Of a stretch of 64,000 bases of DNA, positions 9,590-23,893 are shown piece after piece. The notes beneath the pieces were generated by a model. It had not been told where the DNA came from. It did no database searches and saw nothing but the letters and a program-made list of their open reading frames with translations. The stretch's first letter is position 1. Every line of letters starts with the position of its first letter. The DNA is taken from the NCBI RefSeq assembly GCF_900215145.1, contig NZ_OBDO01000017.1:1-64000 (forward strand), read 5' to 3'. The position numbers were made by a program, and so were the translations under genes. The DNA comes from Geodermatophilus sabuli. GTDB taxonomy: Bacteria; Actinomycetota; Actinomycetes; Mycobacteriales; Geodermatophilaceae.

Positions 9590-9937
9590 TCAGTGCAGGT
9601 GGGCCCGCCAGTCGGCGGGCACGCGGCCGCGAGGGCCCGGTGCGGGCTGGTCGGCCGGGTGGGCCAGCGGCGGGGCGAGGTCCGGGCCGGGGACCGCCCG
9701 CTCGCGGGAGAAGTCCCAGAACCAGGCCTCGCCGGGCTCGAAGCTGCGGACGACGGGGTGCCCGGACGTGGCGGCGTGCTCGCGCGCGTGCCGGGACGGT
9801 GAGGAGTCGCAGCAGCCGACGTGGCCGCACTGGGCGCACCGGCGGAGGTGGAACCACCAGCCCCCGGTGGCGTCGCACTCCACGCACCCGGTCCCGCTGG
9901 GCGGCACCGACGGGTCGATGGCTGTGGGAGCGCTCAT
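9590..9937 (-). CDS. UBP-type zinc finger protein
   Basis: 115 residues. The domain has CVECDATGGWWFHLRRC, CGHVGCCDSS and HAREHAATSGHPVVRSFEPGE, the zinc-binding Cys/His pattern of the ubiquitin-hydrolase-type (ZnF-UBP) finger, followed by the usual WFWDF. In eukaryotes this fold binds the ubiquitin C-terminus. Bacterial stand-alone copies have no ubiquitin partner and no assigned role. To my recollection they recur beside receiver- or cyclic-nucleotide-domain thioredoxin-reductase-like proteins and cyclic-nucleotide histidine kinases in actinobacteria, and both occur here 1-4 kb away. Start ATG 9937 is preceded by GGAGGGG. The gap 9938-10037 holds nothing else. Confidence 0.85.
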   Translation of the reverse strand: MSAPTAIDPSVPPSGTGCVECDATGGWWFHLRRCAQCGHVGCCDSSPSRHAREHAATSGHPVVRSFEPGEAWFWDFSRERAVPGPDLAPPLAHPADQPAPGPRGRVPADWRAHLH

Positions 9938-10037
9938 GGCGGACCCCTCCGGTCGTGGGTGGGCGGGCGGCCCACGGTAGGGACGGCGGGCCCTCCCCGG
10001 AAGCCGTCCCGCGCCCGCGGGACGTCCCCGCTCCCGG

Positions 10038-10814
10038 TCACCGCGGCCGGATGGTCACGCGCGGGGCGGTCAGCATGGCCTTCAGCGCGCCGAGCAGGCC
10101 CAGCACCGGGACGGCGACGGCGCACCACGTGCCGACGGCCAGCCGGGCCGGGTCCCAGCCGGCGTCGGCCAGCAGCACGAGGACACCGGTGGCCGGGGCG
10201 ACCGACACGAGCAGCGCCAGCACCCCGACGACCCGGTGCGTGCGGGCGCGACGGAACAGCAGCAGCCCGAGGAAGAACAGCACCGCGCCGCCCAGCACCA
10301 CCGCGAGCGGCTGCCACAGTCCGCTGCGGCTCAGCTCCCCGGAACCGGACGCCAGGGCGTCGACCCCTCGCCAGGCCAGCGCGAGGCCGGTGGTGTCCAG
10401 GCCCTGCCCCCAGGGCAGCCAGAGGCACGCGTTCGCGGCCAGGCCGGCGAGCAGCAGGGCGACGGCGCCGACCGGCTCGGGACGCCGCAGGACCACCAGC
10501 CGCCCGGGGGAGGCGGGTTCCTCCGGAAGCCGCTCCGCCAGCGCCACGGACTGCTGTTCCCCGCCGGCCGCGGCCCCGCCCTCGCCGGTGTCGGGGGGAG
10601 CGTCGGCGACGGGTCTCTCCGGCAGCCGGCCGGTCCCCTCGTCCTCCGGGGACTCGAGGGGGAACCCGAGGATCGTCGGCTCGACGTCCCCGGTGCCGTC
10701 CGGCCGGGCCGGGACGGCCGGCTCGCGCCGGTCGTCGACGGCCGGGGGGAGCGGGGCCTCCGCGCGCGGTGCCCGCGCGCGGGGACGGTCGGGGTGCGGC
10801 TGCGACTCGGTCAC
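10038..10814 (-). CDS. Predicted membrane protein with disordered N-terminus
   Basis: 258 residues from GTG 10814, chosen because GTCGGAGGA sits just upstream; the open frame continues to 10973 but lacks such a site. Residues about 1-115 are Pro/Glu/Arg-rich and probably disordered. The C-terminal half has four hydrophobic segments (around VGAVALLLAGLAANACL, AVVLGGAVLFFLGLLLF, VVGVLALLVSVAPATGVLVL and WCAVAVPVLGLLGALKAML). I do not recognise the family. It is divergent from the receiver/oxidoreductase gene. The 10815-11105 gap contains no further gene that I can support. Confidence 0.6.
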   Translation of the reverse strand: MTESQPHPDRPRARAPRAEAPLPPAVDDRREPAVPARPDGTGDVEPTILGFPLESPEDEGTGRLPERPVADAPPDTGEGGAAAGGEQQSVALAERLPEEPASPGRLVVLRRPEPVGAVALLLAGLAANACLWLPWGQGLDTTGLALAWRGVDALASGSGELSRSGLWQPLAVVLGGAVLFFLGLLLFRRARTHRVVGVLALLVSVAPATGVLVLLADAGWDPARLAVGTWCAVAVPVLGLLGALKAMLTAPRVTIRPR

Positions 10815-11105
10815 CGGTTCCTCCGACGGCACGGGCGGCGAGGAGTCGCCCGACGCCGCGAGGGTAGGACGACCCGGGCCGCCGCAGCAGGTGGAACGGG
10901 ACGGCCGCCCTCGGGGTCTCCGCGTGTCGCGGCGACGCGCCGGGCGGCAGGCTCGCGCCGCGTGCCCCTCCACGGGCCGGCGAGGGTGTTGCCGCGGCGG
11001 TCCCGGACGCTAGCGTGGTCGCGCTCGCGCCGCCGGGGTCCCGCACGTCGGCGACGCCGCCGCACCCCCATCCCCGCATCCGGCAGGGCCGGTCAGGAGG
11101 CCGTC

Positions 11106-12764
11106 GTGGGCAAACCGGTCCTGCTCAGCGTGGACGACGACCCCGGGGTCTCCCGCGCCGTCGCCCGCGACCTGCGCCGGCGCTACGGGGAGGAGTTCCG
11201 GGTCCTGCGCGCCGCCTCGGCCGACGAGGGCCTGTCGGCGCTGCGCGAGCTCAAGCTGCGCGGGGACCCGGTCGCGGTCCTGCTCGCCGACTACCGGATG
11301 CCGGAGATGAACGGCATCGAGTTCCTCGAGCAGGCGATGGACCTCTTCCCGCACGCGCGCCGGGCCCTGCTCACCGCCTACGCCGACACCGACGCCGCCA
11401 TCGCCGCGATCAACGTCGTCGACGTCGACTCCTACCTGCTCAAGCCGTGGGACCCGCCCGAGGAGAAGCTCTACCCGGTCGTCGACGCCATGATCGAGGC
11501 CTGGCGGGCGAGCGCGGACGGCGGGTTCGAGGGCGTCAAGCTGGTCGGTCACCGCTGGTCGGCGCCGTCCTTCCAGGCCCGGGACTTCCTCGCCCGCAAC
11601 GCCGTCCCCTACCGCTGGTACAGCGTCGACGAGCCGGAGGGGCAGCGGATCCTCGCCGCCGCGGGCGCCGGCCCGGACGACGTCCCGGTGGTGGTGACGT
11701 CGGACGCGCAGGTGCTGCGCCACCCGAGCGAGGCCGAGCTCGCCGCCGTGGCCGGGTTGGGCGTGGAGCCGCAGGCGGACTTCTACGACCTCGTGGTCGT
11801 CGGCGGCGGACCGGCGGGGCTGGGTGCGGCGGTGTACGGCGCCTCGGAGGGGTTGCGCACCGTGCTCGTCGAGCGGCAGGCCACCGGGGGCCAGGCCGGG
11901 CAGAGCAGCCGGATCGAGAACTACCTCGGCTTCCCCGACGGCGTCTCCGGAGGGCAGCTCGCCGACCGCGCCCGCCGGCAGGCGGTGAGGTTCGGCGCGG
12001 AGCTGCTGCTCGCCCGCGACGTGGTGGGCCTGGAGGAGCACGGGCCCAAACGGGTGCTGCACCTCGACGACGGCCGCCGCATCGGCGCGCACGCGGTGGT
12101 CCTGGCCACCGGGGTCTCCTACCGCAGCCTCGGCGTGGCCGGGGTCGACGACCTGACCGGGCGCGGGGTGTTCTACGGGTCGGCCATGACCGAGGCCGCC
12201 GAGTGCGCCGACCGGGACGTCTTCATCGTCGGCGGCGCCAACTCCGCCGGCCAGGCGGCGGTCTTCTTCTCCCGGTACGCGCGTTCGGTGTGCCTGCTGG
12301 TGCGCGGCGCGTCGCTGGAGGCGTCGATGTCGTCGTACCTCATCGAGCAGGTCGCCGGCATCCCGTCGATCAGCGTGCGCACCTGCACCACCGTGGCCGC
12401 CGCGCACGGCGACGGGCACCTGGAGGCGATCACCGTCGAGGACGCCCGCAGCGGGGAGCGGTCGACCCTGCCGGCCAGCCACCTGTTCGTCTTCATCGGG
12501 GGCGCGCCGCGGACGGCCTGGCTCGACGGCGCCGTCCTGCGGGACGAGCGCGGGTTCATCCCCACCGGGCCGGCGCTGCTGCGCGACGGCTGCCGGCCGC
12601 CGGGGTGGACGCTGGACCGCGACCCGTACTTCCTGGAGGCCAGCCTGCCCGGCGTCTTCGTGGCCGGCGACGTCCGGTCGGAGTCGGTGAAACGGGTCGC
12701 CTCCGCGGTCGGAGAGGGTGCCATGGCCGTCACGCTCGTGCACCGGTACCTGGAGAGCCGATGA
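11106..12764 (+). CDS. Response-regulator receiver fused to a thioredoxin-reductase-like flavoprotein
   Basis: 552 residues. Residues 1-130 are a CheY-like receiver with DDD, phospho-Asp in LLADYRMPEMNG, Thr in LLTAYADTD and Lys in YLLKPWD. A linker of about 80 residues (thioredoxin/glutaredoxin-like: FLARNAVPYRWYSVD, PVVVTSDAQVLRHPS) precedes a FAD/NAD(P) oxidoreductase from about residue 220 (VVGGGPAGLGAAVYGAS, IENYLGFP, FIVGGANSAGQAAVFF, GVFVAGDVRS). Where classic thioredoxin reductases have CATC, this protein reads GSAMTEAAEC, so the redox pair is absent. Start GTG 11106 has AGGAGG five bases upstream. The downstream kinase overlaps by ATGA, so the two are coexpressed. It may be a redox or nucleotide-sensing output rather than a thioredoxin reductase. 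Confidence 0.88.
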   Translation: MGKPVLLSVDDDPGVSRAVARDLRRRYGEEFRVLRAASADEGLSALRELKLRGDPVAVLLADYRMPEMNGIEFLEQAMDLFPHARRALLTAYADTDAAIAAINVVDVDSYLLKPWDPPEEKLYPVVDAMIEAWRASADGGFEGVKLVGHRWSAPSFQARDFLARNAVPYRWYSVDEPEGQRILAAAGAGPDDVPVVVTSDAQVLRHPSEAELAAVAGLGVEPQADFYDLVVVGGGPAGLGAAVYGASEGLRTVLVERQATGGQAGQSSRIENYLGFPDGVSGGQLADRARRQAVRFGAELLLARDVVGLEEHGPKRVLHLDDGRRIGAHAVVLATGVSYRSLGVAGVDDLTGRGVFYGSAMTEAAECADRDVFIVGGANSAGQAAVFFSRYARSVCLLVRGASLEASMSSYLIEQVAGIPSISVRTCTTVAAAHGDGHLEAITVEDARSGERSTLPASHLFVFIGGAPRTAWLDGAVLRDERGFIPTGPALLRDGCRPPGWTLDRDPYFLEASLPGVFVAGDVRSESVKRVASAVGEGAMAVTLVHRYLESR

Positions 12765-14194
12765 CCACGGCCGCGAGCCGGGTGACGCCGGCCGAGCTCC
12801 GCGGGCTGTTCCTCTTCGCCGACCTCGACGGCGCGCAGCTGCAGTGGGTGGCCGACAACGCCGACGTCGTCGTCTCCCCGGCCGGGACCACCGTCTCGAC
12901 GGAGGGCGAGCCGGCCGAGTGCTTCTTCGTCCTGCTCGACGGGACGATGAGCATGGTGCGGCTCGTCGGGGGCAGCGAGGTCGAGACCGTGCGGACGTCG
13001 CAGCGCGGCGTCTACTCCGGCGCCGTGCAGTTTTACATCGGCGACCGCATCCCCCAGGTCTACCCGGGCACGGTGCGGGCGGTGACCGACTGCCGCTTCC
13101 TGGCGCTGCCGGCCGCGGAGTTCGAGGCGGTCTTCCGGCGCTGGTACCCGATGGCGGTGCACCTGCTGGAGGGGCTGTTCTTCGGGCAGCGCGACATCGC
13201 CGAGCTGGTCAGCCAGCGGGAGCGGCTGCTGGCCCTGGGCAAGCTCACCGCGGGCCTCACCCACGAGCTCAACAACCCCGCCGCCGCGGCGTCCCGGGCG
13301 GCCGCCGCGCTGCGGGAGCGGTTCGCGGGCATGCGGCACAAGCTGGCCCTGCTCGCCGCCGGGAAGATCGACGGGTCGGTCCTGCGCTCCCTCACCGGGC
13401 TGCAGGAGGACCTCGTCGCCCGGATCGGCGTCGCGGGGGAGCTCACCGCGCTGGAGCGCTCCGACCGGGAGGACGAGCTGGGCGACTGGTTCGACGAGCA
13501 CGGCATCGGCGGCGCCTGGGAGCTCGCCGCCGTGTTCGTCCCGGCGGGTCTGGGGCCCGAGGACCTCGAGTGCGTCGTCGACGCCGTCGAGCCCGGCGCC
13601 CTGGAGGCGGCCCTGCGCTGGCTGGCCTACACGGTGGAGACCGAGACGCTGCTGTCCGAGATCGGCGAGAGCACCGCCCGCATCTCCGGTCTGGTGGACG
13701 CCGCGCGGCAGTACTCCCAGCTGGACCGGGCCCCGCACCAGCCCACCGACCTGCACGACGGGCTGGACGCCACCCTCGTCGTCCTCGGCGCCAAGATCCG
13801 GCCGGGGATCACCGTGGTGAAGGACTACGACCGCTCCCTGCCCAAGGTGCCGGCCTACGCCGGGGAGCTCAACCAGGTGTGGACCAACCTCATCCACAAC
13901 GCGCTGGACGCCATGGCGGGGGAGGGCACGCTCACCCTGCGCACCGCCCGGGACGGCGACTGCGCACTGGTGGAGGTGGCCGACACCGGGCCGGGCATCC
14001 CGGCCGAGCTGCGCCGGCGGGTGTTCGAGCCCTTCTTCACCACCAAGCCGGTCGGTCAGGGCACCGGCCTAGGCCTCGACGTCTCCTGGCGGATCGTGGT
14101 CAACCGGCACGGCGGGGACCTGCGCGTGCAGTCCCGCCCGGGCGACACCCGGTTCCAGGTGCTGCTGCCCCTGTCCGAGGGCCCGCGGGGCTGA
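12761..14194 (+). CDS. Cyclic-nucleotide-domain histidine kinase
   Basis: 477 residues, no membrane segments. Residues about 10-130 form a Crp-like cyclic nucleotide-binding (CNB) domain (LFLFADLDGAQL, GEPAECFFVLLDGTMSMV). The H-box GLTHELNNPAAAASRA follows near residue 170, then an inserted helical region of about 130 residues. The HATPase domain has N-box NLIHNALDAM, G1 DTGPGIP, F-box FEPFFTTKP and G2 GTGLGL. All catalytic boxes appear intact. The ATG overlaps the stop of the receiver-flavoprotein by four bases, which makes that receiver the obvious phosphoacceptor. The RxA-type cNMP pocket is not evident, so the ligand is open. Confidence 0.88.
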   Translation: MTTAASRVTPAELRGLFLFADLDGAQLQWVADNADVVVSPAGTTVSTEGEPAECFFVLLDGTMSMVRLVGGSEVETVRTSQRGVYSGAVQFYIGDRIPQVYPGTVRAVTDCRFLALPAAEFEAVFRRWYPMAVHLLEGLFFGQRDIAELVSQRERLLALGKLTAGLTHELNNPAAAASRAAAALRERFAGMRHKLALLAAGKIDGSVLRSLTGLQEDLVARIGVAGELTALERSDREDELGDWFDEHGIGGAWELAAVFVPAGLGPEDLECVVDAVEPGALEAALRWLAYTVETETLLSEIGESTARISGLVDAARQYSQLDRAPHQPTDLHDGLDATLVVLGAKIRPGITVVKDYDRSLPKVPAYAGELNQVWTNLIHNALDAMAGEGTLTLRTARDGDCALVEVADTGPGIPAELRRRVFEPFFTTKPVGQGTGLGLDVSWRIVVNRHGGDLRVQSRPGDTRFQVLLPLSEGPRG

Positions 14195-14284
14195 GGCCCC
14201 CGTCCGCGCGGTCGCCACCCGCGGCGGAGAATGGTCCGCGGGCGGGCACCCGGCCGCCTCCCTGAGCTCCCCGGAGGCGCCCGC

Positions 14285-15820
14285 GTGTCCCAGCCCGCCG
14301 TCCGCACGACGTCCGCCGACCCGGACAGCCCGGCGCCCTCGGGCGAGAGCGGCTACGAACCGGACCCGCGGCGGTGGCGGGCCCTGTGGGTGACCCTCGT
14401 CGCCGGCTTCATGAGCCTGCTCGACGTCAGCATCGTGTCGGTGGCCCTGCCGTCGCTGCAGCGGGATCTCGGCGCGTCACCGGCCACGGTGCAGTGGGTG
14501 GTCTCCGGTTACGCGCTGACCTTCGCGCTGATGCTGGTGCCCGCGGGACGGCTGGGGGACGCGCTGGGCCGGCGCCGGATGTTCCTGATCGGGCTGGCCC
14601 TGTTCGTGGCCTGCAGCGCCGCGGCCGGCGCGGCGCCCTCGGTGGAGCTGCTGATCGCGGCCCGGCTGGCGCAGGGGCTGGCCGCCGGCTGCCTGGCCCC
14701 GCAGAACTCCGGGCTGATCCAGCAGCTGTTCCGCGGCGGTGAGCGGGGGCGGGCCTTCGGGTTGTTCGGGGCCACGGTCGGCGTCTCCACCGCGGTGGGG
14801 CCGATCGTCGGCGGGCTGATCCTGGCGCTGGCCGACGGCTCCGGCGGGTGGCGGTGGATCTTCTACGTCAACGTCCCGATCGGCGTGGTCGCGATCGCCC
14901 TCGCCTGGCGGCTGCTGCCCCGGGGCGGCACCGGGCAGCGGGGCAGCATCGACGTCGGCGGGGTGCTGCTGCTCGGGATCGGCGCGCTGGCCGTCCTGCT
15001 GCCGCTGGTGCAGGCGGAGTCCGGCGGGCTGGCCCGGCTGTGGTGGCTGTTCCCCGTCGGCGTGCTGGTGCTGACGGCGTTCGTCGCCTGGGAGCGGCGC
15101 GTGGTCGGCCGCGGCGGTCAGCCGGTGTTCGACCCCCGGCTGGTGACGCAGACGCGCGGCTACGGGATCGGCGCCGCGCTGGCGACCCTGTACTTCGTCG
15201 GGTTCAGCGGCATCTGGATCGTCCTCGCCCTGCTGTTCCAGAACGGCCTGGGCTACACCCCGCTGCAGTCGGGGCTGGCGGTGACCCCGTTCGCGGTCGG
15301 GGCGGCGGTCTCCGCGGTGGTGGCCGGGCGGCTGGTCGAGCGCTTCGGCCGGGCGATCACCGTCGTGGGGCTGGTCCTGGTGCTGGCCGGCCTGGGCACC
15401 GTGGCGGTCCTGCTGCTCGTCGTCCCGGCGTCGGCGGTCGGCTGGGCGGTCGGGCCGGCCCTGCTCGTGGGCGGGATCGGCGGCGGCTGCGTCATCTCGC
15501 CCAACGTCACGATGACCCTGCGCGACGTGCCGGTACGGATGGCCGGCGCGGCCGGTGGCGGGCTGCAGACCGCGCAGCGTTTCGGCGCCGCGATCGGCAG
15601 CGCGGCCCTGCCGGGGCTGTTCTACGTCGTGCTCGCCGCCACGGGGGAGGACTTCCCGACGGCGGCGGCCGCGGGGCTCGGGGTCGCGGTGGCCGGGGTG
15701 CTCGGCGCGCTGGCCCTGGCCGTCGTCGACCTGCGCCGCAGCCGGGCACGGGACGCCGCCGAGGCCGCCGCGGAGGCCGAGCGCGACGACGCGGAGCGCC
15801 ACGGCCACGCCCACCCGTGA
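14285..15820 (+). CDS. DHA2-family MFS drug exporter (EmrB/QacA type)
   Basis: 511 residues, with the 14 membrane segments expected of the DHA2 family. Signatures: LDVSIVSVALPSLQRDLG in helix 1, GRLGDALGRRRMFL between helices 2 and 3, and GLFGATVGVSTAVGPIVGG (antiporter motif C) in helix 5. Start GTG 14285 has GGAGG seven bases upstream; the open frame runs further up but has no ribosome site. It ends in a charged cytoplasmic tail. It exports drugs or metabolites by proton antiport in characterised relatives. Its stop is one base from the stop of the convergent IclR gene. No substrate can be inferred. Confidence 0.87.
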   Translation: MSQPAVRTTSADPDSPAPSGESGYEPDPRRWRALWVTLVAGFMSLLDVSIVSVALPSLQRDLGASPATVQWVVSGYALTFALMLVPAGRLGDALGRRRMFLIGLALFVACSAAAGAAPSVELLIAARLAQGLAAGCLAPQNSGLIQQLFRGGERGRAFGLFGATVGVSTAVGPIVGGLILALADGSGGWRWIFYVNVPIGVVAIALAWRLLPRGGTGQRGSIDVGGVLLLGIGALAVLLPLVQAESGGLARLWWLFPVGVLVLTAFVAWERRVVGRGGQPVFDPRLVTQTRGYGIGAALATLYFVGFSGIWIVLALLFQNGLGYTPLQSGLAVTPFAVGAAVSAVVAGRLVERFGRAITVVGLVLVLAGLGTVAVLLLVVPASAVGWAVGPALLVGGIGGGCVISPNVTMTLRDVPVRMAGAAGGGLQTAQRFGAAIGSAALPGLFYVVLAATGEDFPTAAAAGLGVAVAGVLGALALAVVDLRRSRARDAAEAAAEAERDDAERHGHAHP

Positions 15821-15821
15821 G

Positions 15822-16505
15822 TCAGCGGAGGGCGGCGGCCACCCTCGCGGCGGCGGCGGTCACGGCCCGGCCGATGCGCTCGACGTCGGCGGTGTCGTCG
15901 ACGTAGACCACGGCAATCGCGGCGCGGGCGCCCCCGTCGGGGCCGGGGACCGGCGCGGCGACGGACCGCATGCCGGGGATGACCTCGCCGTGGGACGTCG
16001 CCCAGCCGGTCTCCCGCGCCGCTCGCAGCTCCGGCCGGTCGCCGGGGGACGGCGGCTCGGGGACGAGCAGCGCCAGGCCGGGCGCTCCGCGGCCGACGGG
16101 GTGACGGGTGCCGGGGCGGTAGACGACGTGCGCGGTCGTGTCGTGCGGCTCGACGCTGGTCACGGTCACCGCGTCGTCGCCGGCCCGGACGACCAGGAAC
16201 GCCGTCATCCCCAGCTCGGCGACCAGGTCGTCGAGACGGGGGAGGGCCGCGGCCTGCAGGCCTGCGCGGACGCCGCGGGAGAGCGCGACCAGACCCAGGC
16301 CGAGCGAGAAGTGACCGGCCCGGTCGCGCTCGACGAGCTGGTGGTCCTCCAGCGTGCGCAGGAGCCGGTAGGTGATCGACCGGTGCAGGCCGACGCCCTG
16401 GGCGATCTCCATGACCGGCTGCGGCGTCCCCACCGCGGCGAGGTGCTCGAGGATGCGCAGGCCGCGGTCGAGGGTCTGCGACTGCGGCGCCGGGCCCGCG
16501 CTCAC
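15822..16505 (-). CDS. IclR-family regulator of the homogentisate module
   Basis: 227 residues: an N-terminal winged helix (TLDRGLRILEHLAAVG, PVMEIAQGVGLHRSITYRLLRTLEDHQLVER) and a C-terminal IclR effector domain (LVAELGMTAFLVVRAGDDAVTV, AAPVPGPDGGARAAIAVVY). IclR proteins commonly control aromatic catabolism (PcaU, PobR and HmgR types). Start GTG 16505 lies 10 bases after the hmgA stop on the same strand, so it is probably the last gene of the hmg operon. The receptor domain is somewhat shorter than the usual 250-270 residue family members. I could not find a repeated operator for it near 20352-20570. Confidence 0.85.
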   Translation of the reverse strand: MSAGPAPQSQTLDRGLRILEHLAAVGTPQPVMEIAQGVGLHRSITYRLLRTLEDHQLVERDRAGHFSLGLGLVALSRGVRAGLQAAALPRLDDLVAELGMTAFLVVRAGDDAVTVTSVEPHDTTAHVVYRPGTRHPVGRGAPGLALLVPEPPSPGDRPELRAARETGWATSHGEVIPGMRSVAAPVPGPDGGARAAIAVVYVDDTADVERIGRAVTAAAARVAAALR

Positions 16506-16515
16506 CGGCGGTCTC

Positions 16516-17733
16516 TCACCGGGCCGGTCCCCGGCCCGACCAGGACCAGGCGTACTGCCCGTCGTCGGCGGCGACGCCGGCCTCGCCGAGGTCCAGCGGA
16601 CGGAAGGTGTCGACCATGACGGCGGTCTCGTCGAAGTACTCCACCCCGAGGGACCGTTCGACGGCGCCGGGCTGCGGGCCGTGGGAGTGCCCGCCGGGGT
16701 GCACGGAGATCGAGCCCTTGCCGATGCCCGAGCCCTTGCGCGCCTCGTAGTCGCCGTCGACGTAGAACATGATCTCGTCGGAGTCGACGTTGGAGTGGTA
16801 GTAGGGCACCGGCACCGCCAGCGGGTGGTAGTCGACCTTGCGCGGCACGAAGTTGCAGATCACGAAGTTGGTGCCCTCGAAGACTTGGTGCACCGGCGGG
16901 GGCTGGTGCACCCGGCCGGTGATCGGCTCGAAGTCGCGGATGTTGAACGCGTACGGGTACAGGTGCCCGTCCCAGCCGACCACGTCGAAGGGGTGCTCGG
17001 GCACGACGTGGACGGTGCCGGCCAGCCCGCCGGGCCCGCTGCCGCGGTGCTTGACGTACACCTCTGTGTCGCTGTCGCTGTCGGTGCCTTCCACCACCAG
17101 CGGCTCGGTGGGGCCGCGCAGGTCCCGCTCGCAGTAGGGCGCGTGCTCGAGGAACTGCCCGTACCTGCTCAGGTAGCGCTTGGGCGGGGCGATGTGGGAG
17201 TTGGCCTCGATGGCGTAGGTGCGCAGCGGCTCGCTCCCGGTGGGGATCCACCGGTGCGTGGTGGTCCGCGGGATGACGACGTAGTCGCCCTGCGCCACCT
17301 CCAGGACGCCGAACACCGTCTCGACGGTGGCCGCGCCGCGCTCGACGTAGACGCACTCGTCCCCGGTCGCGTTGCGGTAGTAGGGGCTGGGCAGGCTGGA
17401 CACCGCGTAGGAGATGCGGACGTCGGCGTTGCCGAGCACCAGCCGCCGCCCGGTGACCGGGTCGACGGCCTTGTGCTCCTCGCCGGGGAACAGGTCGTGC
17501 AGCTTCAGGTGACGGGGCACCAGCGGCGCGTTCGGGGTGAGCGACTGGTCGGGCAGCTGCCACGGGCGGGCGTCGACGATCGCCGACGGCACGCCGCGGT
17601 GGTACAGCAGCGAGGAGTCCGACGAGAAGCCCTCCTCACCGACCAGCTCCTCGTAGTAGAGACCGCCGTCGGGGCGGCGGTGCTGGGTGTGCCGCTTCGG
17701 CGGGACGCTGCCCACCTGCCGGTAGAACGCCAT
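16516..17733 (-). CDS. hmgA: Homogentisate 1,2-dioxygenase
   Basis: 405 residues, close to the 400-440 expected. It opens the aromatic ring of homogentisate to maleylacetoacetate using Fe(II). The cupin core shows the iron ligands: His and Glu in YYHSNVDSDEIMFY and the distal His in HPGGHSHGPQPG, and also GWDGHLYPYAFNI and EGTNFVICNFVPRK. Start ATG 17733 has AGGAGG upstream. It follows the flavin hydroxylase on the same strand, with a 28-bp palindrome in the gap. Neither maleylacetoacetate isomerase nor fumarylacetoacetase is adjacent; an FAH-family gene lies 27 kb away at 44369 in another operon. Confidence 0.93.
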   Translation of the reverse strand: MAFYRQVGSVPPKRHTQHRRPDGGLYYEELVGEEGFSSDSSLLYHRGVPSAIVDARPWQLPDQSLTPNAPLVPRHLKLHDLFPGEEHKAVDPVTGRRLVLGNADVRISYAVSSLPSPYYRNATGDECVYVERGAATVETVFGVLEVAQGDYVVIPRTTTHRWIPTGSEPLRTYAIEANSHIAPPKRYLSRYGQFLEHAPYCERDLRGPTEPLVVEGTDSDSDTEVYVKHRGSGPGGLAGTVHVVPEHPFDVVGWDGHLYPYAFNIRDFEPITGRVHQPPPVHQVFEGTNFVICNFVPRKVDYHPLAVPVPYYHSNVDSDEIMFYVDGDYEARKGSGIGKGSISVHPGGHSHGPQPGAVERSLGVEYFDETAVMVDTFRPLDLGEAGVAADDGQYAWSWSGRGPAR

Positions 17734-17752
17734 GGGAATGCCTCCTGCGGGG

Positions 17753-17780
17753 AGGGGCAGAAATGGCCATTTCTGCCCCT
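17753..17780. repeat. 28-bp perfect palindrome upstream of hmgA
   Basis: Every base pairs across the centre at 17766/17767. The core is AAATGGCCATTT, flanked by AGGGGCAG on the left and CTGCCCCT on the right. It occupies most of the 54-base gap between hydroxylase and hmgA, ending 20 bases before the hmgA start. It shares its core with the palindrome at 26546-26571. It could be an RNA hairpin, attenuator, mRNA processing site or REP-like element. Confidence 0.8.
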
Positions 17781-17787
17781 GGGTCGG

Positions 17788-19392
17788 TCAGGCGGGGACG
17801 GGGCTGGGGATCGCGCGGGTGAGCAGCCGGGCCACCGCCGGGGCGACGTCGGCGGCGCGGGTCAGGACGGCGGCGACGTGCGCGTCAGGGCGCAGCACCC
17901 AGAGCTCGTCCGTGCGGGTGCCGAGCGCCTCCCGCAGCACCGGCCCGGGGTCGAGGTCGCGGATGCGGTGCACCGCCACGGGCAGGTCGCCGAGAGCCGG
18001 GAGCACGGGGAGCTCCGCATCGTCCCCGACCAGCACGGTGACCCCCTCCCGAGCCAGCTGGCGCAGCCGGACGACGTCCGGACGGCCGGGCACGCTGACC
18101 GGGCAGTCGGGCACCAGGACGCCGGGCGCGGGGACGGGGACGTCGCCGCGGGCGGGCCGGCCCGGGAACGGACGGCGCTCGTCGCGGGTGGTCAGCGGCG
18201 AGTCGACGTACCAGAACGGTTCGGCCAGCCGGCCGGAGTCGACCTGCGCCCGCGCGGCCGGATCGGTCACCGCCCGCTCGAGGACGTCGCGACGGTGCCG
18301 GGCCTCGGCCTCGGTGCCCGGCACCAGGAACCGCATGGTGGCCCCGGTGACCTCGATGTTCTCCAGGGCAGCGGCGTGCCGCTCGTCGTGGTAGCTGTCC
18401 AGCAGCGACTCCGGCGCCCACCCGCGCCGGACGAAGGCGATCTTCCAGGCCGCGTTCTCGGCGTCGAGCACCCCGGAGTTCAGCCCGCGGGCGCCGAAGG
18501 GGGACACCAGGTGCGCGGCGTCACCGGCGACGAGCACCTTCCCGACCCGCATGCGGTCGACGACCCGGGAGTGGAAGCGGTAGACCGACTTCCACACGAC
18601 CTCGTAGGGCCGGTCGCCGATGACCTGGCGGATCCGGCGGTCCAGCCCGCCCGAGGCCTCCTCGGCGGCGAGGTCGAACTCCGGCGGTACCTGCCAGTCG
18701 ATGCGGAAGGTGGAGTCCGGGCAGGGGTGGATGAGCACCTGTCGGCCCGGGTTCCACTCGGGGTCGAAGTAGAACCGGCGCTCGGTCTCCCACCCGGGCA
18801 GGTCGGTGCGGATGTCGCAGATGAGGAAGTGGTCGTCGAAGGTCTCGCCCTCGAAGCGCAGCCCCAGGGCCGACCGCAGGTCGTCGCAGCGCGGCCCGGA
18901 ACAGGCCACCGCATAGCACCCCTGCACCTCGACGTCGCCGTCCCCGGTCGCGCAGGTCACGGTGACGCCTGCCTCGTCCTGGGCCAGGCCGGTGACCCGG
19001 GAGCCCCAGCGGACCTCGATCAGCGGCTGAGCGGCGATCGCGGCGTCCAGCAGCCGCTCGGTCTCGCACTGCGAGATGTTCACGAACGGCGGGAACGGCG
19101 AGCGGCCCCGGTCGGCGAACCGGAAGCTGAACAGCTCGCGGTCGCGGTGGAAGGTGCGCGCCGTCGTCCAGGTGACGCCGCGGCGGGCGACCTCGGCGCC
19201 GACGCCGACGGCGTCCCAGACGTCGAGGACGTCGCGCTGCTGGCAGATCGCCTTGCTGCCGACCGCGTCCCGTTCGGGGCGGCCGTCGAGGATGACCACG
19301 GGCAGGCCCCAGCGGGCCAGCAGCAGCGCGGTGGTCTGGCCGACCGGGCCGGCGCCCAGAACCAGCACGGGTGTGGTCCCGGAGACGCTCAT
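17788..19392 (-). CDS. FAD-dependent aromatic hydroxylase, probable homogentisate-forming
   Basis: 534 residues, a class A flavoprotein monooxygenase. The N-terminal dinucleotide loop LGAGPVGQTTALLLARWG, the CSGPRCDDLR segment and the GD motif GDAAHLVSPFGARGLNSG are present, with a C-terminal thioredoxin-like domain (about 420-534) as in the phenol-hydroxylase/MhpA group. Placement before hmgA suggests that it makes homogentisate, for example from 3-hydroxyphenylacetate, or acts on a related phenolic acid (inference). Its ATG overlaps the stop of the MBL gene by four bases (19389-19392), so the two are translationally coupled. Confidence 0.85.
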   Translation of the reverse strand: MSVSGTTPVLVLGAGPVGQTTALLLARWGLPVVILDGRPERDAVGSKAICQQRDVLDVWDAVGVGAEVARRGVTWTTARTFHRDRELFSFRFADRGRSPFPPFVNISQCETERLLDAAIAAQPLIEVRWGSRVTGLAQDEAGVTVTCATGDGDVEVQGCYAVACSGPRCDDLRSALGLRFEGETFDDHFLICDIRTDLPGWETERRFYFDPEWNPGRQVLIHPCPDSTFRIDWQVPPEFDLAAEEASGGLDRRIRQVIGDRPYEVVWKSVYRFHSRVVDRMRVGKVLVAGDAAHLVSPFGARGLNSGVLDAENAAWKIAFVRRGWAPESLLDSYHDERHAAALENIEVTGATMRFLVPGTEAEARHRRDVLERAVTDPAARAQVDSGRLAEPFWYVDSPLTTRDERRPFPGRPARGDVPVPAPGVLVPDCPVSVPGRPDVVRLRQLAREGVTVLVGDDAELPVLPALGDLPVAVHRIRDLDPGPVLREALGTRTDELWVLRPDAHVAAVLTRAADVAPAVARLLTRAIPSPVPA

Positions 19393-20351
19393 CCCTGCAG
19401 CTCGTCCCAGACCTGGCGGTCACGCTCGGCGGTCCAGATGACAGGGCGCTCGATGCCGGAGAGCTCGTCCCAGAGCCGCTGGACGTCGAAGGGCAGGCAG
19501 TGCTCGAAGATCGGCCACGAACCGTACTCCGGAGCCAGCGCGGCGTGCGTGGCCTCGAAAGCCTGCTTGAGGGTGCCGCCGGAGCGGTGCACGTCGCCGA
19601 CGGTGCGCTGCATGGTGAGCAGGAAGTCGCGGGTCTGCTCGATCGCGGCGTCCACCTCGTCGCGGCCGCGGGCGATCCTGCCGCGGCCGCCGACCAGCTG
19701 GCTGGCGCGCAGGGCCTTGATCCGGTCGAGCGTGCCGGCGGCCCAGTCGAAGTGGAACGCGTCGCCGGTGTAGAGGGCCGCCTGCGACTCGACGAGGTCG
19801 CCGGCGAAGACGATCTCCTGTTTGGGCAGCCAGGCGACGATGTCGCCCTCGGTGTGGCCGCGGCCGAGGAACTCCAGGACCAGCTCGCCGCGGTCCCCGC
19901 CCAGCTCGATGGTCAGCTTGTCGCGGAAGGTCATCGTCGGCCAGGTGAGCCCGGGGATGGACTCCGGCTCCTCGAACAGCCGCGGCATCCGCCCGTACTC
20001 GCTCTCCCAGTCCTGCTGGCCGCGCTCCTCGATGAGGTGCCTGGTCTGCTCGGAGCTGACGATCACCTCGGCGTCGAAGGCGCTGGCGCCCAGCACGCGG
20101 ACGGCGTGGTAGTGGCTGAGCACCAGGTACCGGACCGGCTTGTCGGTGTGCTCGCGCAGCTTGGCCAGCCAGCGGCGGGCGGCGACCGGGGTGGCCAGCG
20201 CCTCGAAGCAGACGAGGAAGTCCTCGCCCTCGATGGCGCCCAGGTTCGGGTCGCCCTCCGCGGTCAGCGCGTACACGCCGTCGGCGAGCACCTCGAGGGT
20301 CTGCTCCTTGACGCCGAGGTCGGCGGAGGAGGCGAAGGGCTTGGCTGCCAT
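19389..20351 (-). CDS. MBL-fold hydrolase with altered metal motif
   Basis: 320 residues from ATG 20351, which has GGGAGA upstream; the frame continues to 20441 without a better site. Metallo-beta-lactamase features: LSHYHAVRVLGASAF where HxHxDH is expected, GRGHTEGDIVAWLP for the third His region, and IVFAGDLVES for the bridging Asp. HYHAVR keeps two His but lacks the Asp-His that bind the second metal, so it is probably mononuclear or altered in chemistry. It is the first gene of the MBL-hydroxylase-hmgA-IclR operon. In aromatic pathways MBL proteins may open lactones or thioesters; the reaction here is unknown. Confidence 0.82.
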   Translation of the reverse strand: MAAKPFASSADLGVKEQTLEVLADGVYALTAEGDPNLGAIEGEDFLVCFEALATPVAARRWLAKLREHTDKPVRYLVLSHYHAVRVLGASAFDAEVIVSSEQTRHLIEERGQQDWESEYGRMPRLFEEPESIPGLTWPTMTFRDKLTIELGGDRGELVLEFLGRGHTEGDIVAWLPKQEIVFAGDLVESQAALYTGDAFHFDWAAGTLDRIKALRASQLVGGRGRIARGRDEVDAAIEQTRDFLLTMQRTVGDVHRSGGTLKQAFEATHAALAPEYGSWPIFEHCLPFDVQRLWDELSGIERPVIWTAERDRQVWDELQG

Positions 20352-20570
20352 GAGGGTCTCCCGGGCTGCGATGGTGTCCGATAAGAGAACTCGACGTTCG
20401 CTCAGCGACATCGACGGTACGGGGAGTGTGGTGGCGGACACAACCCTCGGGCGATGTCCCGCGGCGGGGGCGGCGGCCCGTCATGGACGGGGGGCCGAGG
20501 CGTCTGCACTGGTGTGACCACGACACCGATCCCGGACCCGAGGCCGGCCGGACCCGCGGGCGAGGCACCG

Positions 20571-20969
20571 ATGATCCGGATCCTGCTCGCCGACGACCAT
20601 CCCGTGCTGCGCCACGTGCTGGTGCCCCTCATCGCCGAGGCCGGTGACATGGCGGTCGTCGCCGAGTGCGAGTCCGGCGACGAGCTGCTCCACGAGGGGC
20701 TCCGGGTCCGCCCGGACGTGGTGCTGGTCGATCCGGAGTTGCCGGGGATGGACCCGCTGCAGGCGTCGTGCGAGCTGCACGAGCAGCTCCCGCGGGTGCG
20801 CGTCCTCGTGCACGCACGCTGCTTCAGCCTGGTCACGTTCTCCCGTGCGCAGCGCCTCGGTGCCGTGGGCTACCTGCTCAAGAGCGACGGCCTCGACGAC
20901 CTGCCCCGGCGCATCCGGGCGGTGGTGGGCGGGGCCACCGCGTGGACCCCTGGCGCCCCGGCGCGCTGA
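20571..20969 (+). CDS. Stand-alone response-regulator receiver protein
   Basis: 132 residues from ATG 20571 (GTG 20514 would add 19). A receiver with ADDHPVLRHVL, phospho-Asp in VLVDPELPGMDPL and Lys in YLLKSDGLDDLP. It resembles the receiver half of NarL/LuxR regulators, but the frame stops just where the helix-turn-helix would begin. The usual Ser/Thr after strand beta4 is replaced (LVHARC). It may be a truncated LuxR regulator or a single-domain receiver. No kinase is adjacent; the nearest is at 12761. It ends 13 bases from the convergent lutC stop. Confidence 0.75.
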   Translation: MIRILLADDHPVLRHVLVPLIAEAGDMAVVAECESGDELLHEGLRVRPDVVLVDPELPGMDPLQASCELHEQLPRVRVLVHARCFSLVTFSRAQRLGAVGYLLKSDGLDDLPRRIRAVVGGATAWTPGAPAR

Positions 20970-20982
20970 CCGGCCGGCGGCC

Positions 20983-21612
20983 TCACCCCATCAGCACGAC
21001 GACCAGCGTGCGGGGGCCGTGCACACCCTCGACCCGGGACAGCTCGATGTCGCTGGTCGCCGACGGGCCGCTCACCATGGTCAGGGGCGCGGTGGCGTCC
21101 AGCCGGGCCAGTGCCTCCGGCACGCCGCCCACCACCTGACCGGTCTCCACCACGCAGACCAGGCAGTCGGGCAGCAGCGACAGCGCCCGCCGCCCCGACC
21201 GCGCCCCGCCGTCGAGGACCAGCGTCCCGGTCTCGGCGACCGCGACGGCCACCCCCGTCACCGTGGCGGCGAACGCGGTGAGGCCGACCGCCGGGCGGCC
21301 GTCGTCCTCGCTGACGCCGTCGGGACGCCAGGCGGCGGGCAGCCCGGGCGCGACGACCACGCCGGCCGGCGCCCAGCCGACGCCGAGCCCGGCGTCCAGG
21401 GCCGCGGCGACCGTCGCGCCGACCGCCTCGGGGGAGCAGCGCAGGACGGTGGCCGCGTAGTCCTCGAGCCGGTCGGTGAGGACGTCGAGCAGCTCGGCGA
21501 CCGGCCGCCCGTCGGACCTCCGGTAGTGCCGGTGCACCTCCGGCGCCGGACGGCGGTCCGGCCCGAGCGCCGTCCGGATCCGGCCGAGCACCTCGTCGCG
21601 GGCGCCGGTCAT
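20983..21612 (-). CDS. lutC: Lactate utilization protein C (LUD domain)
   Basis: 209 residues. The LUD-domain signature VAVAVAETGTLVLDGG followed by LSLLPDCLVCVVETGQVV matches LutC/YkgG. With LutA and LutB it forms the iron-sulfur complex that oxidises L-lactate to pyruvate. The ATG overlaps the lutB stop (21609-21612), and it is the last gene of the LacI-lutA-lutB-lutC operon. Confidence 0.9.
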   Translation of the reverse strand: MTGARDEVLGRIRTALGPDRRPAPEVHRHYRRSDGRPVAELLDVLTDRLEDYAATVLRCSPEAVGATVAAALDAGLGVGWAPAGVVVAPGLPAAWRPDGVSEDDGRPAVGLTAFAATVTGVAVAVAETGTLVLDGGARSGRRALSLLPDCLVCVVETGQVVGGVPEALARLDATAPLTMVSGPSATSDIELSRVEGVHGPRTLVVVLMG

Positions 21613-23123
21613 CGTCCGTGCTCCCGCGCCCAGGCCTGCGTGAACGTCTCGCGGGGCGGCGTGGGCAGGTCGCGGCTGCGGGTCCACGCCGACGCCGGGG
21701 GCGGGAGCGCCACCGGCAGCGTGGGGCCTCCCCGGGAGAGGAACCGGCCGAGGCCCGCGGCCCGCTGGGCCAGCCGCCACAGCCACGGGGAGGACATCGC
21801 CCGGGACAGTGCGCGGAACGCCGCCGCCTCGGGCGTCGTCCGCTGCTGCGCCTCGACGTGCTCGGCGCGCAGGTGCACCAGGATCGACGGGATGTCGATG
21901 GCGACCGGGCAGGCGTCGTAGCAGGCGCCGCACAGCGACGAGGCGTACGGCAGCGATGCGTTGTCCTCCACCCCGGTCAGTTGTGGGGAGAGGACCGCGC
22001 CGATCGGTCCGGGGTACACCGACCCGTAGGCGTGCCCGCCGGCGCGCTCGTAGACCGGGCAGACGTTGAGGCACGCCGAGCAGCGGATGCAGTGCAGCGC
22101 CTCGCGGCCCACCTCGTCGGCGAGCACCGCCGTCCGCCCGTTGTCCAGCAGCACGAGGTGGAACTCCTGCGGGCCGTCGCCGGGCGTGACCCCCGTCCAC
22201 AGCGAGGTGTAGGGGTTCATCCGCTCGCCCGTGGAGGAGCGGGGGAGCAGCTGCAGGAACACCTCGAGGTCCTGCCAGGTCGGCACCAGCTTCTCGATGC
22301 CCATCACCGTGATCAGCGTCTGCGGGAGGGTGAGGCACATCCGCCCGTTCCCCTCGGACTCCACCACGGCGAGCGTCCCGGTCTCCGCGACGGCGAAGTT
22401 CGCCCCGCTGACCGCCACCCGCGCCCGCAGGAACCGCTCCCGCAGGTGCGCGCGGGCCGCCATGGCCAGCCGCCGCGGCTCGTCGGTGAGCTCGGCGGCG
22501 GCGCCGGGCTCGGCGAACTGCGGCATGGTGCGCAGGAAGATCTCCCGGATCTCGGCCCGGTTCTTGTGGATCGCCGGCACCAGGATGTGACTCGGCTCGT
22601 CCTCCCCGAGCTGGACGATGAGCTCCGCCAGGTCGGTCTCGTGCGCGGCGATGCCGGCCGCCTCCAGCGCCTCGTTGAGGCCGATCTCCTGGGTGGCCAT
22701 CGACTTGACCTTGACGACCTCGTCGGCGCCGGTCGCCCGGACCAGCCGGGTGACGATCTCGTTGGCCTCGGTGGCGTCCCGGGCCCAGTGCACGGTGCCG
22801 CCGCGCGCGGTGACCTGCTCCTCCAGCTGGACCAGCAGCTCGTCGAGGCGCGCCATCGTCGCCTGCTTGAGCGCCTTGCCGGCCTGCCGCAGCTCCTCCC
22901 AGTCGGGCACCTCGCCGACGACGGCGGCCCGCTTGGCGCGGATGGTCGACGTCGCGTGCCCGAGGTTGGCCCGCAGCTGACCGTCGCGCAGCGCGTCACG
23001 GGCGGCGTCGGGGAACGACCGGTCGCCGCGCAGGTGGCCCACTCCCCGGGGAGCCGTGGGGAGGCTGGGTCGTTGCGCCGTCGGGAGGCCGAGGAACGTC
23101 GGTGGGCGGGACGTGGCGGTCAT
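21609..23123 (-). CDS. lutB: Lactate utilization protein B (iron-sulfur, LUD domain)
   Basis: 504 residues. A LUD domain (about 60-300; VKVKSMATQEIGLNE, VAETGTLAVVESEGNGRMC) is followed by a two-cluster ferredoxin region: CIRCSACLNVCPVYERAGGH near 330 and CGACYDACPVAIDIP near 380, both with the CxxCxxCxxxCP pattern. This is the LutB/YkgF architecture and length. It overlaps lutA (ATGA, 23120-23123) and lutC by four bases each, a tightly coupled operon. Confidence 0.93.
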   Translation of the reverse strand: MTATSRPPTFLGLPTAQRPSLPTAPRGVGHLRGDRSFPDAARDALRDGQLRANLGHATSTIRAKRAAVVGEVPDWEELRQAGKALKQATMARLDELLVQLEEQVTARGGTVHWARDATEANEIVTRLVRATGADEVVKVKSMATQEIGLNEALEAAGIAAHETDLAELIVQLGEDEPSHILVPAIHKNRAEIREIFLRTMPQFAEPGAAAELTDEPRRLAMAARAHLRERFLRARVAVSGANFAVAETGTLAVVESEGNGRMCLTLPQTLITVMGIEKLVPTWQDLEVFLQLLPRSSTGERMNPYTSLWTGVTPGDGPQEFHLVLLDNGRTAVLADEVGREALHCIRCSACLNVCPVYERAGGHAYGSVYPGPIGAVLSPQLTGVEDNASLPYASSLCGACYDACPVAIDIPSILVHLRAEHVEAQQRTTPEAAAFRALSRAMSSPWLWRLAQRAAGLGRFLSRGGPTLPVALPPPASAWTRSRDLPTPPRETFTQAWAREHGR

Positions 23124-23893
23124 GCCGGCACCGCCGGGCGGGTGGCCTGGTGCGGGGTCACGGCCTGCTCCGTCGAGGCGAGGATCTCGGCCAGGTGCAC
23201 GGTGCGGGTGCCCGAGCGCAGCCGGGAGAGGCCGCCGCCGATGTGCATCAGGCAGGACGCGTCCCCGGCGGTGCACACCTCGGCGTGCGTGGACAGCACG
23301 TTGGCCATCTTGTCGGTGAGCATCGCGGTCGAGGTGTCGGCGTTCTTGACCGCGAACGTGCCGCCGAAGCCGCAGCACTGGTCGGCACCGGGCAGCTCCA
23401 CGAGCTCCAGCCCGCGGACGGCGCGCAGCAGCCGCAGTGGGCGGTCACCGACCCGCAGCAGGCGCAGCGAGTGGCAGGTCGGGTGGTAGGTGACCCGGTG
23501 CGGGTAGTAGGCGCCGACGTCGGTGACGCCGAGGACGTCGACCAGGAACTGCGACAGCTCGTACGTGCGCCCGGCCAGGGCCTCGGCGTCGGAGGCCAGC
23601 CCGTGCTCCCCGGCCCGCCGCAGCACCATGGCCTGCTGGTGGTGGATCGACGCCACGCAGGAGCCGGACGGCGCCACGACCGCCTCCGCACCGGCGAAGG
23701 CCCGCACGTGGTTGGCCACGACCGGCACCGCCTCGCGCCGGTAGCCGGTGTTGACGTGCATCTGCCCGCAGCAGGCCTGCCCCGGCGGGACGACGACCTC
23801 GTGGCCCAGCCGCTGCAGCAGCGTCGCCGTCGCGTGCGCGACCTGCGGCACCATCGTGTCGACCAGGCACGTCGCGAAGAGCGCGACCCTCAT
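23120..23893 (-). CDS. lutA: Lactate utilization protein A (Cys-rich CCG-domain)
   Basis: 257 residues. Two CCG domains, with motifs GQACCGQMHVNTGY and ADQCCGFGGTFAVKN plus YHPTCHS, match LutA/YkgE and the heterodisulfide-reductase-like cysteine-rich family that binds an iron-sulfur cluster. Its ATG overlaps the stop of the LacI gene by four bases. The location in a locus divergent from rhamnose genes fits use of L-lactate produced by the RhaW dehydrogenase domain. Confidence 0.92.
   Translation of the reverse strand: MRVALFATCLVDTMVPQVAHATATLLQRLGHEVVVPPGQACCGQMHVNTGYRREAVPVVANHVRAFAGAEAVVAPSGSCVASIHHQQAMVLRRAGEHGLASDAEALAGRTYELSQFLVDVLGVTDVGAYYPHRVTYHPTCHSLRLLRVGDRPLRLLRAVRGLELVELPGADQCCGFGGTFAVKNADTSTAMLTDKMANVLSTHAEVCTAGDASCLMHIGGGLSRLRSGTRTVHLAEILASTEQAVTPHQATRPAVPA

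Follow-up and report, generated by a model that had tools for sequence, protein, structure and literature searches.

Most well-studied receiver (REC) domains drive DNA binding or second-messenger enzymes. The Kef potassium/proton antiporters have flavoprotein subunits (KefF/KefG), and KefF, which regulates KefC, is a precedent for a flavoprotein that gates an antiporter. Regulators in which a receiver is fused to a thioredoxin reductase (TrxR) are known from a census that, in the part drawn on here, names them a 'Mycobacterium-like combination' (PMC5847659). We analyzed a 64 000-nucleotide stretch of the Geodermatophilus sabuli genome (contig NZ_OBDO01000017.1, positions 1–64 000; hereafter the window), in which the gene for a REC–TrxR-like flavoprotein (P0001) overlaps that for a histidine kinase with a cyclic-nucleotide-binding (CNB) domain (P0002) and lies near a gene for a UBP-type zinc finger (P0003). 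From the gene structure, recurrence and residue patterns, we infer the biochemical steps of a two-component stress-signalling module with a flavoprotein output, a reading to which we give a probability of about 0.5. A preliminary description of the locus had called the system possibly undescribed, which is too strong given that the consulted part of the same census names the fusion. The REC–TrxR class of regulators and the NCBI product names are already known, and the new element is a kinase-free version, in which a CNB domain is joined to the flavoprotein, with a UBP finger. A full-text search of the open-licence literature, with preprints outside its scope, listed neither a study of a UBP–flavoprotein pairing nor a recognizable functional study of a REC–TrxR protein.

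Organization of the locus

The features of the locus, with the basis of each assignment, are as follows.

9590–9937, minus strand: zf-UBP zinc-finger protein P0003, 115 aa, finger at 9686–9886 (Pfam, alignment)
9593–9685, minus strand: conserved C-terminal tail PGPxxRVPxxW of P0003, common in kinase-linked UBP proteins
11106–12764, plus strand: REC–glutaredoxin-like–TrxR-like flavoprotein P0001, 552 aa (Pfam, alignment, folds)
11106–11480, plus strand: receiver domain with D10/D11, D62 (phosphoacceptor, 11289–11291), T90 and K113 (Pfam Response_reg, 1e-12)
11529–11753, plus strand: glutaredoxin-like domain, S-A-P-S (residues 152–155) in place of CxxC (Pfam in relatives, model)
11778–12761, plus strand: TrxR-like FAD/NAD(P)H domain, YGSAM (12174–12188) in place of CATC, signature GGANSAGQAA (Pyr_redox_2, 1.8e-29)
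12761–14194, plus strand: CNB-domain histidine kinase P0002, 477 aa (Pfam, alignment, AlphaFold)
12788–13150, plus strand: CNB-fold input domain without the GE...R-x-A pocket (Pfam, alignment, model)
13262–13264, plus strand: phospho-acceptor histidine H168 (same residue in all 33 sequences of alignment A3)
13367–13591, plus strand: helical insertion of ~75 aa between the two DHp helices (AlphaFold model)

The flavoprotein gene starts at GTG 11106, preceded by AGGAGG at 11095–11100, and its TGA is overlapped by the kinase ATG (12761) over 4 bp (ATGA, 12761–12764). The coupling of a CNB kinase to a REC/TrxR-like gene in the preliminary description is confirmed by this overlap and by the Pfam domains, and the proposed output, a flavoprotein and not DNA binding, is supported. 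The UBP finger had also been described as lying close by. This is right as to distance (1.2 kb, on the upstream side of the flavoprotein gene) and not as to arrangement: it is on the opposite strand, a 265-aa open reading frame (10038–10835, minus strand) separates the two, and the UBP gene is outside the flavoprotein operon. It provides the single zf-UBP match in the whole 5.5-Mb genome. The intervening frame was rejected as a fourth component; it had no Pfam match, and the nearest named relative, Blastococcus litoris (L240), whose flavoprotein is 85% identical, has a different 149-aa gene there on the other strand. At least two further REC-flavoproteins are encoded in the genome (G000:C3:31252-32895 and G000:C9:173935-175551), with no kinase of the family within 5 kb.

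Phosphotransfer residues and forms of control

The receiver of P0001 has the residue set of a response regulator, D10/D11, D62, T90 and K113 being invariant across the 36 sequences of alignment A2. In P0002, Pfam detected cNMP_binding (4.9e-11) and HATPase_c (1.4e-23), and HisKA scored 0.00013 with 22.4 bits, under the cut-off of 26.9. This weak score would be explained by the insertion that splits the DHp helices: the AlphaFold model has these at residues 130–202 and 278–322 with four short helices between, the inserted block reaches a pLDDT of 67–73 at its start and 82–90 in the remainder, and all 33 aligned kinases share it. In the same kinases H168, N376/N380, D408-G410-G412 and G434-G436-G438 are invariant, and the H, N and G boxes are thus all present.

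The glutaredoxin-like/TrxR-like part of the flavoprotein carries either REC or CNB in front. A FastTree phylogeny was built from this part alone, leaving out the receiver, with 73 rows (72 distinct) from hand-chosen loci; residue and tree counts are given as distinct genes, a gene fetched by two routes being counted once. Fifteen CNB proteins formed one group, with two plasmid CNB proteins apart, 34 REC proteins (33 distinct) formed a second group with a CNB kinase near 31 of the 33, and 21 REC proteins formed a third, sister group with a CNB kinase near none of them, although support was weak on 25 of the 69 inner branches. Outside the kinase-free clade, 47 of 48 distinct receivers retain Asp62 (the lone miss is a gap in a gene cut at a contig end), versus 7 of 21 inside it (Fisher p 9e-10); the corresponding figures are 48/48 versus 2/21 for Thr90 (p 5e-15) and 48/48 versus 10/21 for Lys113 (p 2e-7). 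All Fisher p values in this study were computed without correction for kinship. Because the phosphorylation residues decay in the clade that lacks kinases, which is the best evidence here, we consider phosphotransfer from the kinase to the receiver very probable, and the same loss indicates the kinase–receiver pairing that had been proposed at the outset.

UBP neighbours were found in all three tree groups, a distribution that takes 16 or more changes along the tree, and therefore the UBP gene follows the flavoprotein and not the kinase. The kinase-free CNB-flavoprotein, which UBP accompanies as well, would represent the same pathway in one-component form. As a single output exists in a one-component, a two-component and a pseudo-receiver form, the direction of signal flow becomes readable from evolution.

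In the CNB domain, the phosphate-binding cassette motif, which we take to be GE...R-x-A, has no counterpart in the window kinase, whose pocket reads GAVQF...YPGTVRAV. Cyclic-nucleotide sensing by this kinase was rejected, as the pocket residues are gone. Read by eye at aligned positions, the cassette is intact in 6 of 54 distinct kinases (L029, L050, L062, L065, L066 and L071; matching the pattern without alignment adds a few) and in 0 of 17 CNB-flavoproteins. At L108, L111 and L164, one REC-flavoprotein gene is followed by three CNB-kinase genes in a row (two at L111), with a DHA2-type transporter and a UBP gene within several kb.

Recurrence of the gene neighbourhood

Two kinds of sample were used. 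Regions gathered as hand-picked matches (120) were chosen partly for a nearby UBP, and selection-free counts were therefore taken from 396 evenly drawn genomes of the phylum, with cut-offs of E ≤ 1e-60 for the flavoprotein and E ≤ 1e-40 for the kinase; up to three flavoprotein, four kinase and 15 UBP candidates were scored per genome, and split genes were counted twice. Of these genomes, 97 had the flavoprotein, 95 had zf-UBP and 52 had the kinase. Both flavoprotein and UBP were present in 68, the flavoprotein without UBP in 29, UBP without the flavoprotein in 27 and neither in 272 (Fisher p 3e-31). A UBP gene lay within 5 kb of 27 of the 141 flavoprotein places against 0.38 pairs expected from random placement, a rough figure that ignores gene lengths and sets some genome sizes to 4 Mb. 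Conversely, 28 of 129 UBP places were near a flavoprotein gene and 63 of 74 kinase places were within 5 kb of one. Among the 27 UBP-adjacent flavoprotein places, 15 had a kinase and 12 did not; of these 12, the match to the query begins only at residue 126–144 in eight and takes in the receiver in four.

In the 80 named loci (the best 80 of 591 stretches matching a kinase-clade query), the kinase was the next gene in 78, and in the other two it followed one and four called genes further on. A UBP gene was close in 41. In 39 of these it was downstream on the same strand, and the other two (L218 and L240) had the arrangement of the window, with UBP upstream and on the opposite strand. In Streptomyces fungicidicus and Tsukamurella tyrosinosolvens, successive genes of the trio share 4 bp, and a single-gene CNB–histidine kinase–UBP fusion (L062:5774-7441) adjoins a REC–glutaredoxin-like–TrxR-like gene. 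The neighbourhood analysis suggested by the preliminary description thus yielded a conserved co-occurrence of the three families, the absence of which had been named as one half of a refutation. Its recurring actinobacterial neighbourhood held up as to recurrence and not as to restriction, parts of it being present in Deinococcus, cyanobacteria, Burkholderiaceae and Rhizobiaceae. Kinase–flavoprotein pairs were found in Deinococcus, Nostoc, Gloeothece and Caballeronia plasmids, and UBP–flavoprotein pairs in Agrobacterium, Paraburkholderia dioscoreae and Rhizobium leguminosarum, all three with the family active-site motif and the last beside two response regulators and a protein annotated as ATP-binding. 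In 18 of the 40 plasmid records listed among 90 matched by the flavoprotein, including Burkholderia and Paraburkholderia, a UBP finger lay at most 2 kb away, and in one it was 6 Mb off. In the neighbourhood clusterings, every other protein cluster was less frequent than those of the flavoprotein, the kinase and UBP. Three 'TRXR' labels next to UBP (L125, L130 and L153) proved to be amine-oxidase-like and a fourth (L137) a pyridine nucleotide disulfide reductase with a dimerisation domain, and these were not counted.

A flavoprotein without redox-active cysteines

Between the receiver and the TrxR-like part, at about residues 142–216, P0001 has a glutaredoxin-like domain without cysteines that had been overlooked in the preliminary description. 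Pfam Glutaredoxin matched two of four flavoproteins in one scan; over all scans, with cut-offs of 1, 0.001 and 0.01, it was detected in L083 and the CNB form L057 and gave no match in P0001, L047, L048, L176 or L240; in the AlphaFold model the domain has a thioredoxin-like beta–alpha order. Glutaredoxin active-site cysteines are absent from P0001, and YGSAM (residues 357–361) occupies the position of CATC in TrxR, in line with the earlier claim of a missing CxxC. After exclusion of one wrongly called row (L006_x) from the residue counts, which left 81 of 82 rows (77 distinct), 80 of the 81 rows, or 76 of 77 distinct relatives, had no CxxC in either domain; the single exception, L083, has CxxC in both domains and no N-terminal control domain. 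The family signature is GG[AG]NSAGQA versus GGGDSA in TrxR. Of three TrxR arginines that presumably hold the NADPH 2'-phosphate, one is retained (R400, 80 of 81 rows). The best fold matches of the AlphaFold model are AhpF and thioredoxin reductases, and P0001 scores 208.7 bits against the TIGR01292 equivalog cut-off of 343.45. Because both CxxC motifs are absent and this score is below the cut-off, the identity of a thioredoxin reductase was ruled out. P0001 is predicted from its sequence to bind FAD, and since the family has persisted across several bacterial phyla despite the loss of both disulfide centres, its chemistry must be different. Of the proteins that NCBI names 'cyclic nucleotide-binding domain-containing thioredoxin-disulfide reductase', the three checked (L173, L174 and L176) have no active-site CxxC despite the name; L173 carries CECC away from the active site.

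The UBP finger and its partners

The finger of P0003 is a clear zf-UBP (Pfam 7.7e-15, 55.3 bits versus a cut-off of 22.7), and its closest solved chain is 2ida, a hypothetical protein. In 93 distinct UBP fingers, five cysteine and three histidine positions are kept in 93/93 and a sixth cysteine position in 92/93; the bacterial family is marked by LR, GCCDSS and EPGExW. The tail PGPxxRVPxxW is present in 44 of 54 UBP proteins near the kinase and flavoprotein, and in a looser form in 11 of 80 others. R221 of USP5, which we take to be the arginine that reads the ubiquitin C-terminus, is aligned to a histidine in P0003, and Asp occupies the position presumed equivalent to HDAC6 R1155 in 88 of the 93 fingers. 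Judged by its sequence, the finger lacks the pocket arginine and would not recognize a ubiquitin C-terminus; we know of no ubiquitin in bacteria of this kind. A ubiquitin-like or Pup tail as ligand is unsupported for the same missing arginine. The flavoproteins end alike (..HRYLE..) with or without a UBP neighbour, as compared by eye in up to 30 sequences shown per group.

Among the 93 sampled UBP frames, eight formed fusions with an antiporter of the Na+/H+ or Kef type, the one in L063 being also near a flavoprotein gene, and a further 25 were near a flavoprotein gene and 10 within 1.5 kb of an antiporter gene. The antiporter–UBP gene of L063 overlaps tail to tail with the end of a flavoprotein–kinase operon. 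Such fusions and neighbours suggest a link to antiporters, which we nevertheless rate as somewhat unlikely. Pfam identified L063:9042-11111 and L099:3252-5123 as Kef-type and NhaP-type cation/proton antiporters, respectively, with a C-terminal UBP finger. A Deinococcus cation:proton antiporter also has a terminal UBP finger. An LtrA membrane protein is fused to zf-UBP at L161:2683-4185, and LtrA occurs near flavoprotein genes in Deinococcus and Nostoc.

Neighbouring genes

Some neighbours point to a role in stress. In Rhodococcus pyridinivorans the gene row is dnaJ-cbpM-clpB-trxA-UBP-CNB-flavoprotein. On a plasmid of Paraburkholderia dioscoreae (L257), a flavoprotein–UBP pair lies amid PsiE, Clp ATPase, Hsp20 and HdeD genes and resembles the tLST island, which, according to the part of the report used here, carries thioredoxin and KefB and confers tolerance to heat and chlorine (PMC8290217). 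The L257 flavoprotein gene as annotated is without its front part. By eye, no tLST genes of the Hsp20, ClpG or HdeD type were seen among the called genes of the window, of which the MFS gene was scanned, and no systematic search was made. A gene for S-(hydroxymethyl)mycothiol dehydrogenase follows the Tsukamurella operon; similar genes, possibly for other dehydrogenases of the superfamily, were present in 4 of the 80 named loci and a universal stress protein in 13, and ClpB, TrxA and DHA2-type transporters in none.

Behind the kinase gene in the window, an MFS transporter gene (14231–15820) resembles the gene behind the kinase in Deinococcus aetherius; counting the window, 10 of 66 flavoprotein loci had a transporter of this type, and none of the 80 named loci did. 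By eye, 15822–23893 appears to encode an IclR regulator, a homogentisate-type dioxygenase, an FAD monooxygenase and LutCBA-like proteins. A DUF5996 gene was found near UBP fingers in actinobacteria and one cyanobacterium (L121, L261, L262 and others), with seven members among the UBP loci clustered. At L109, L112, L133 and L134, UBP is near a gene cluster that is a peroxidase by Pfam (L109 scanned) and whose length suggests a catalase-peroxidase.

Proposed mechanism and rival explanations

We propose that the CNB domain of the kinase would sense a signal, probably not cAMP or cGMP, after which the kinase would be autophosphorylated on H168 and phosphorylate D62 of the receiver, a step with indirect support. 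Phosphorylation would then switch the glutaredoxin-like/TrxR-like part, an FAD protein with retained FAD and NAD(P)H folds. No electron transfer via a dithiol is expected with the cysteine pairs lost, which argues against a thioredoxin reductase; more probably the protein is a flavin oxidoreductase that depends on NAD(P)H, or a switch that reads redox state. The UBP finger protein may be the partner of the flavoprotein, most likely as an adaptor carrying its state to targets, which might include the monovalent cation/proton antiporters that are fused to UBP fingers elsewhere. We lean towards the flavoprotein being the controlled output, and a direct partnership between it and UBP is tentatively suggested. 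Several points weigh against this scheme. A family kinase was within 5 kb of only 55 of the 141 flavoprotein places, antiporters were nearly absent from the named loci (CPA1 1/80, CPA2 0/80, and LtrA 0/80), the flavoprotein model is moderate only (pLDDT 72, pTM 0.47), and gene neighbourhood cannot separate an adaptor from a target role of UBP.

UBP might also be a frequent neighbour with a job of its own and no contact with the kinase–flavoprotein pair. The strand of the window UBP gene and the unrelated reading frame beside it fit this explanation, as do the 39 of 80 named loci in which UBP is not close (two of them end too early to tell) and the 50 of 93 sampled UBP frames near neither a flavoprotein nor an antiporter; we regard it as quite unlikely in view of the overlapping genes in Streptomyces and Tsukamurella, the kinase–UBP fusion, the degree of co-occurrence (p 3e-31) and the tail that is shared by most of the kinase/flavoprotein-linked UBP proteins (44/54 versus 11/80). 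Were UBP instead a redox substrate, reduced flavin, or thioredoxin fed by the flavin, would reduce oxidised UBP cysteines as a thiol switch. The near-invariance of the six cysteine positions, the TrxA–UBP–CNB–TrxR row behind dnaJ/cbpM/clpB in R. pyridinivorans and TrxA with ClpB in three more flavoprotein loci (L054–L056) speak for such a switch. However, direct thiol reduction by a TrxR-like protein presumably requires the missing dithiol, the UBP cysteines are expected to be zinc ligands, and none of the 80 named loci had a TrxA of this type at E 1e-20 (a single query, and a strict threshold for a small protein), and we consider the substrate role improbable.

The direction of signalling could also be reversed, the TrxR-like part sensing NAD(P)H/NAD(P)+ or an oxidant and acting back on the kinase, with the receiver as a docking domain and the output elsewhere. 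This would account for the disappearance of the two redox-active cysteine pairs and of all but one of the three arginines presumed to form the TrxR NADPH motif, and for the 14 of 21 sister-clade receivers that persist without Asp62. Kinase-clade receivers retain the phosphotransfer residues, though, and the direct fusion of CNB onto the flavoprotein suggests signal flow toward the latter, making a sensor role improbable. In a wider extension of the proposed module, which we rate as unlikely, bacterial UBP fingers would be a family of adaptors linking TrxR-like flavoproteins without cysteines to membrane proteins, monovalent cation/proton antiporters among them. The module would then gate ion transport by redox state, in a one-component form (CNB-flavoprotein) and a two-component form (CNB kinase to REC-flavoprotein), and the old ubiquitin-tail pocket would be reused for another ligand. 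With the module as proposed, bacterial ubiquitin-type fingers gain a testable partner.

Comparison with known systems

As proposed for this module, the Kef system combines a flavoprotein with a cation/proton antiporter in redox stress, and a Kef-like antiporter–UBP gene adjoins the L063 operon. They differ in that the link here is known from gene fusion and neighbourhood alone and is not present in the window. P0003 has the zinc-ligand pattern and aromatic residues of USP5/HDAC6-type zf-UBP, with a histidine instead of the ubiquitin-reading arginine. AhpF and low-molecular-weight thioredoxin reductase have the same FAD and NAD(P)H domains as P0001, and AhpF presumably also has a thioredoxin-fold domain in front, but P0001 lacks both redox-active cysteine pairs. 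P0001 shares the receiver–TrxR-like fusion with the census regulators, whose account, in the part drawn on, mentions no glutaredoxin-like domain, CxxC loss, UBP or kinase partner, kinase-free CNB form or function (PMC5847659). The NCBI-named 'cyclic nucleotide-binding domain-containing' reductases have the same glutaredoxin-like/TrxR-like part and, in L176, a UBP neighbour, but in these CNB replaces REC and there is no kinase.

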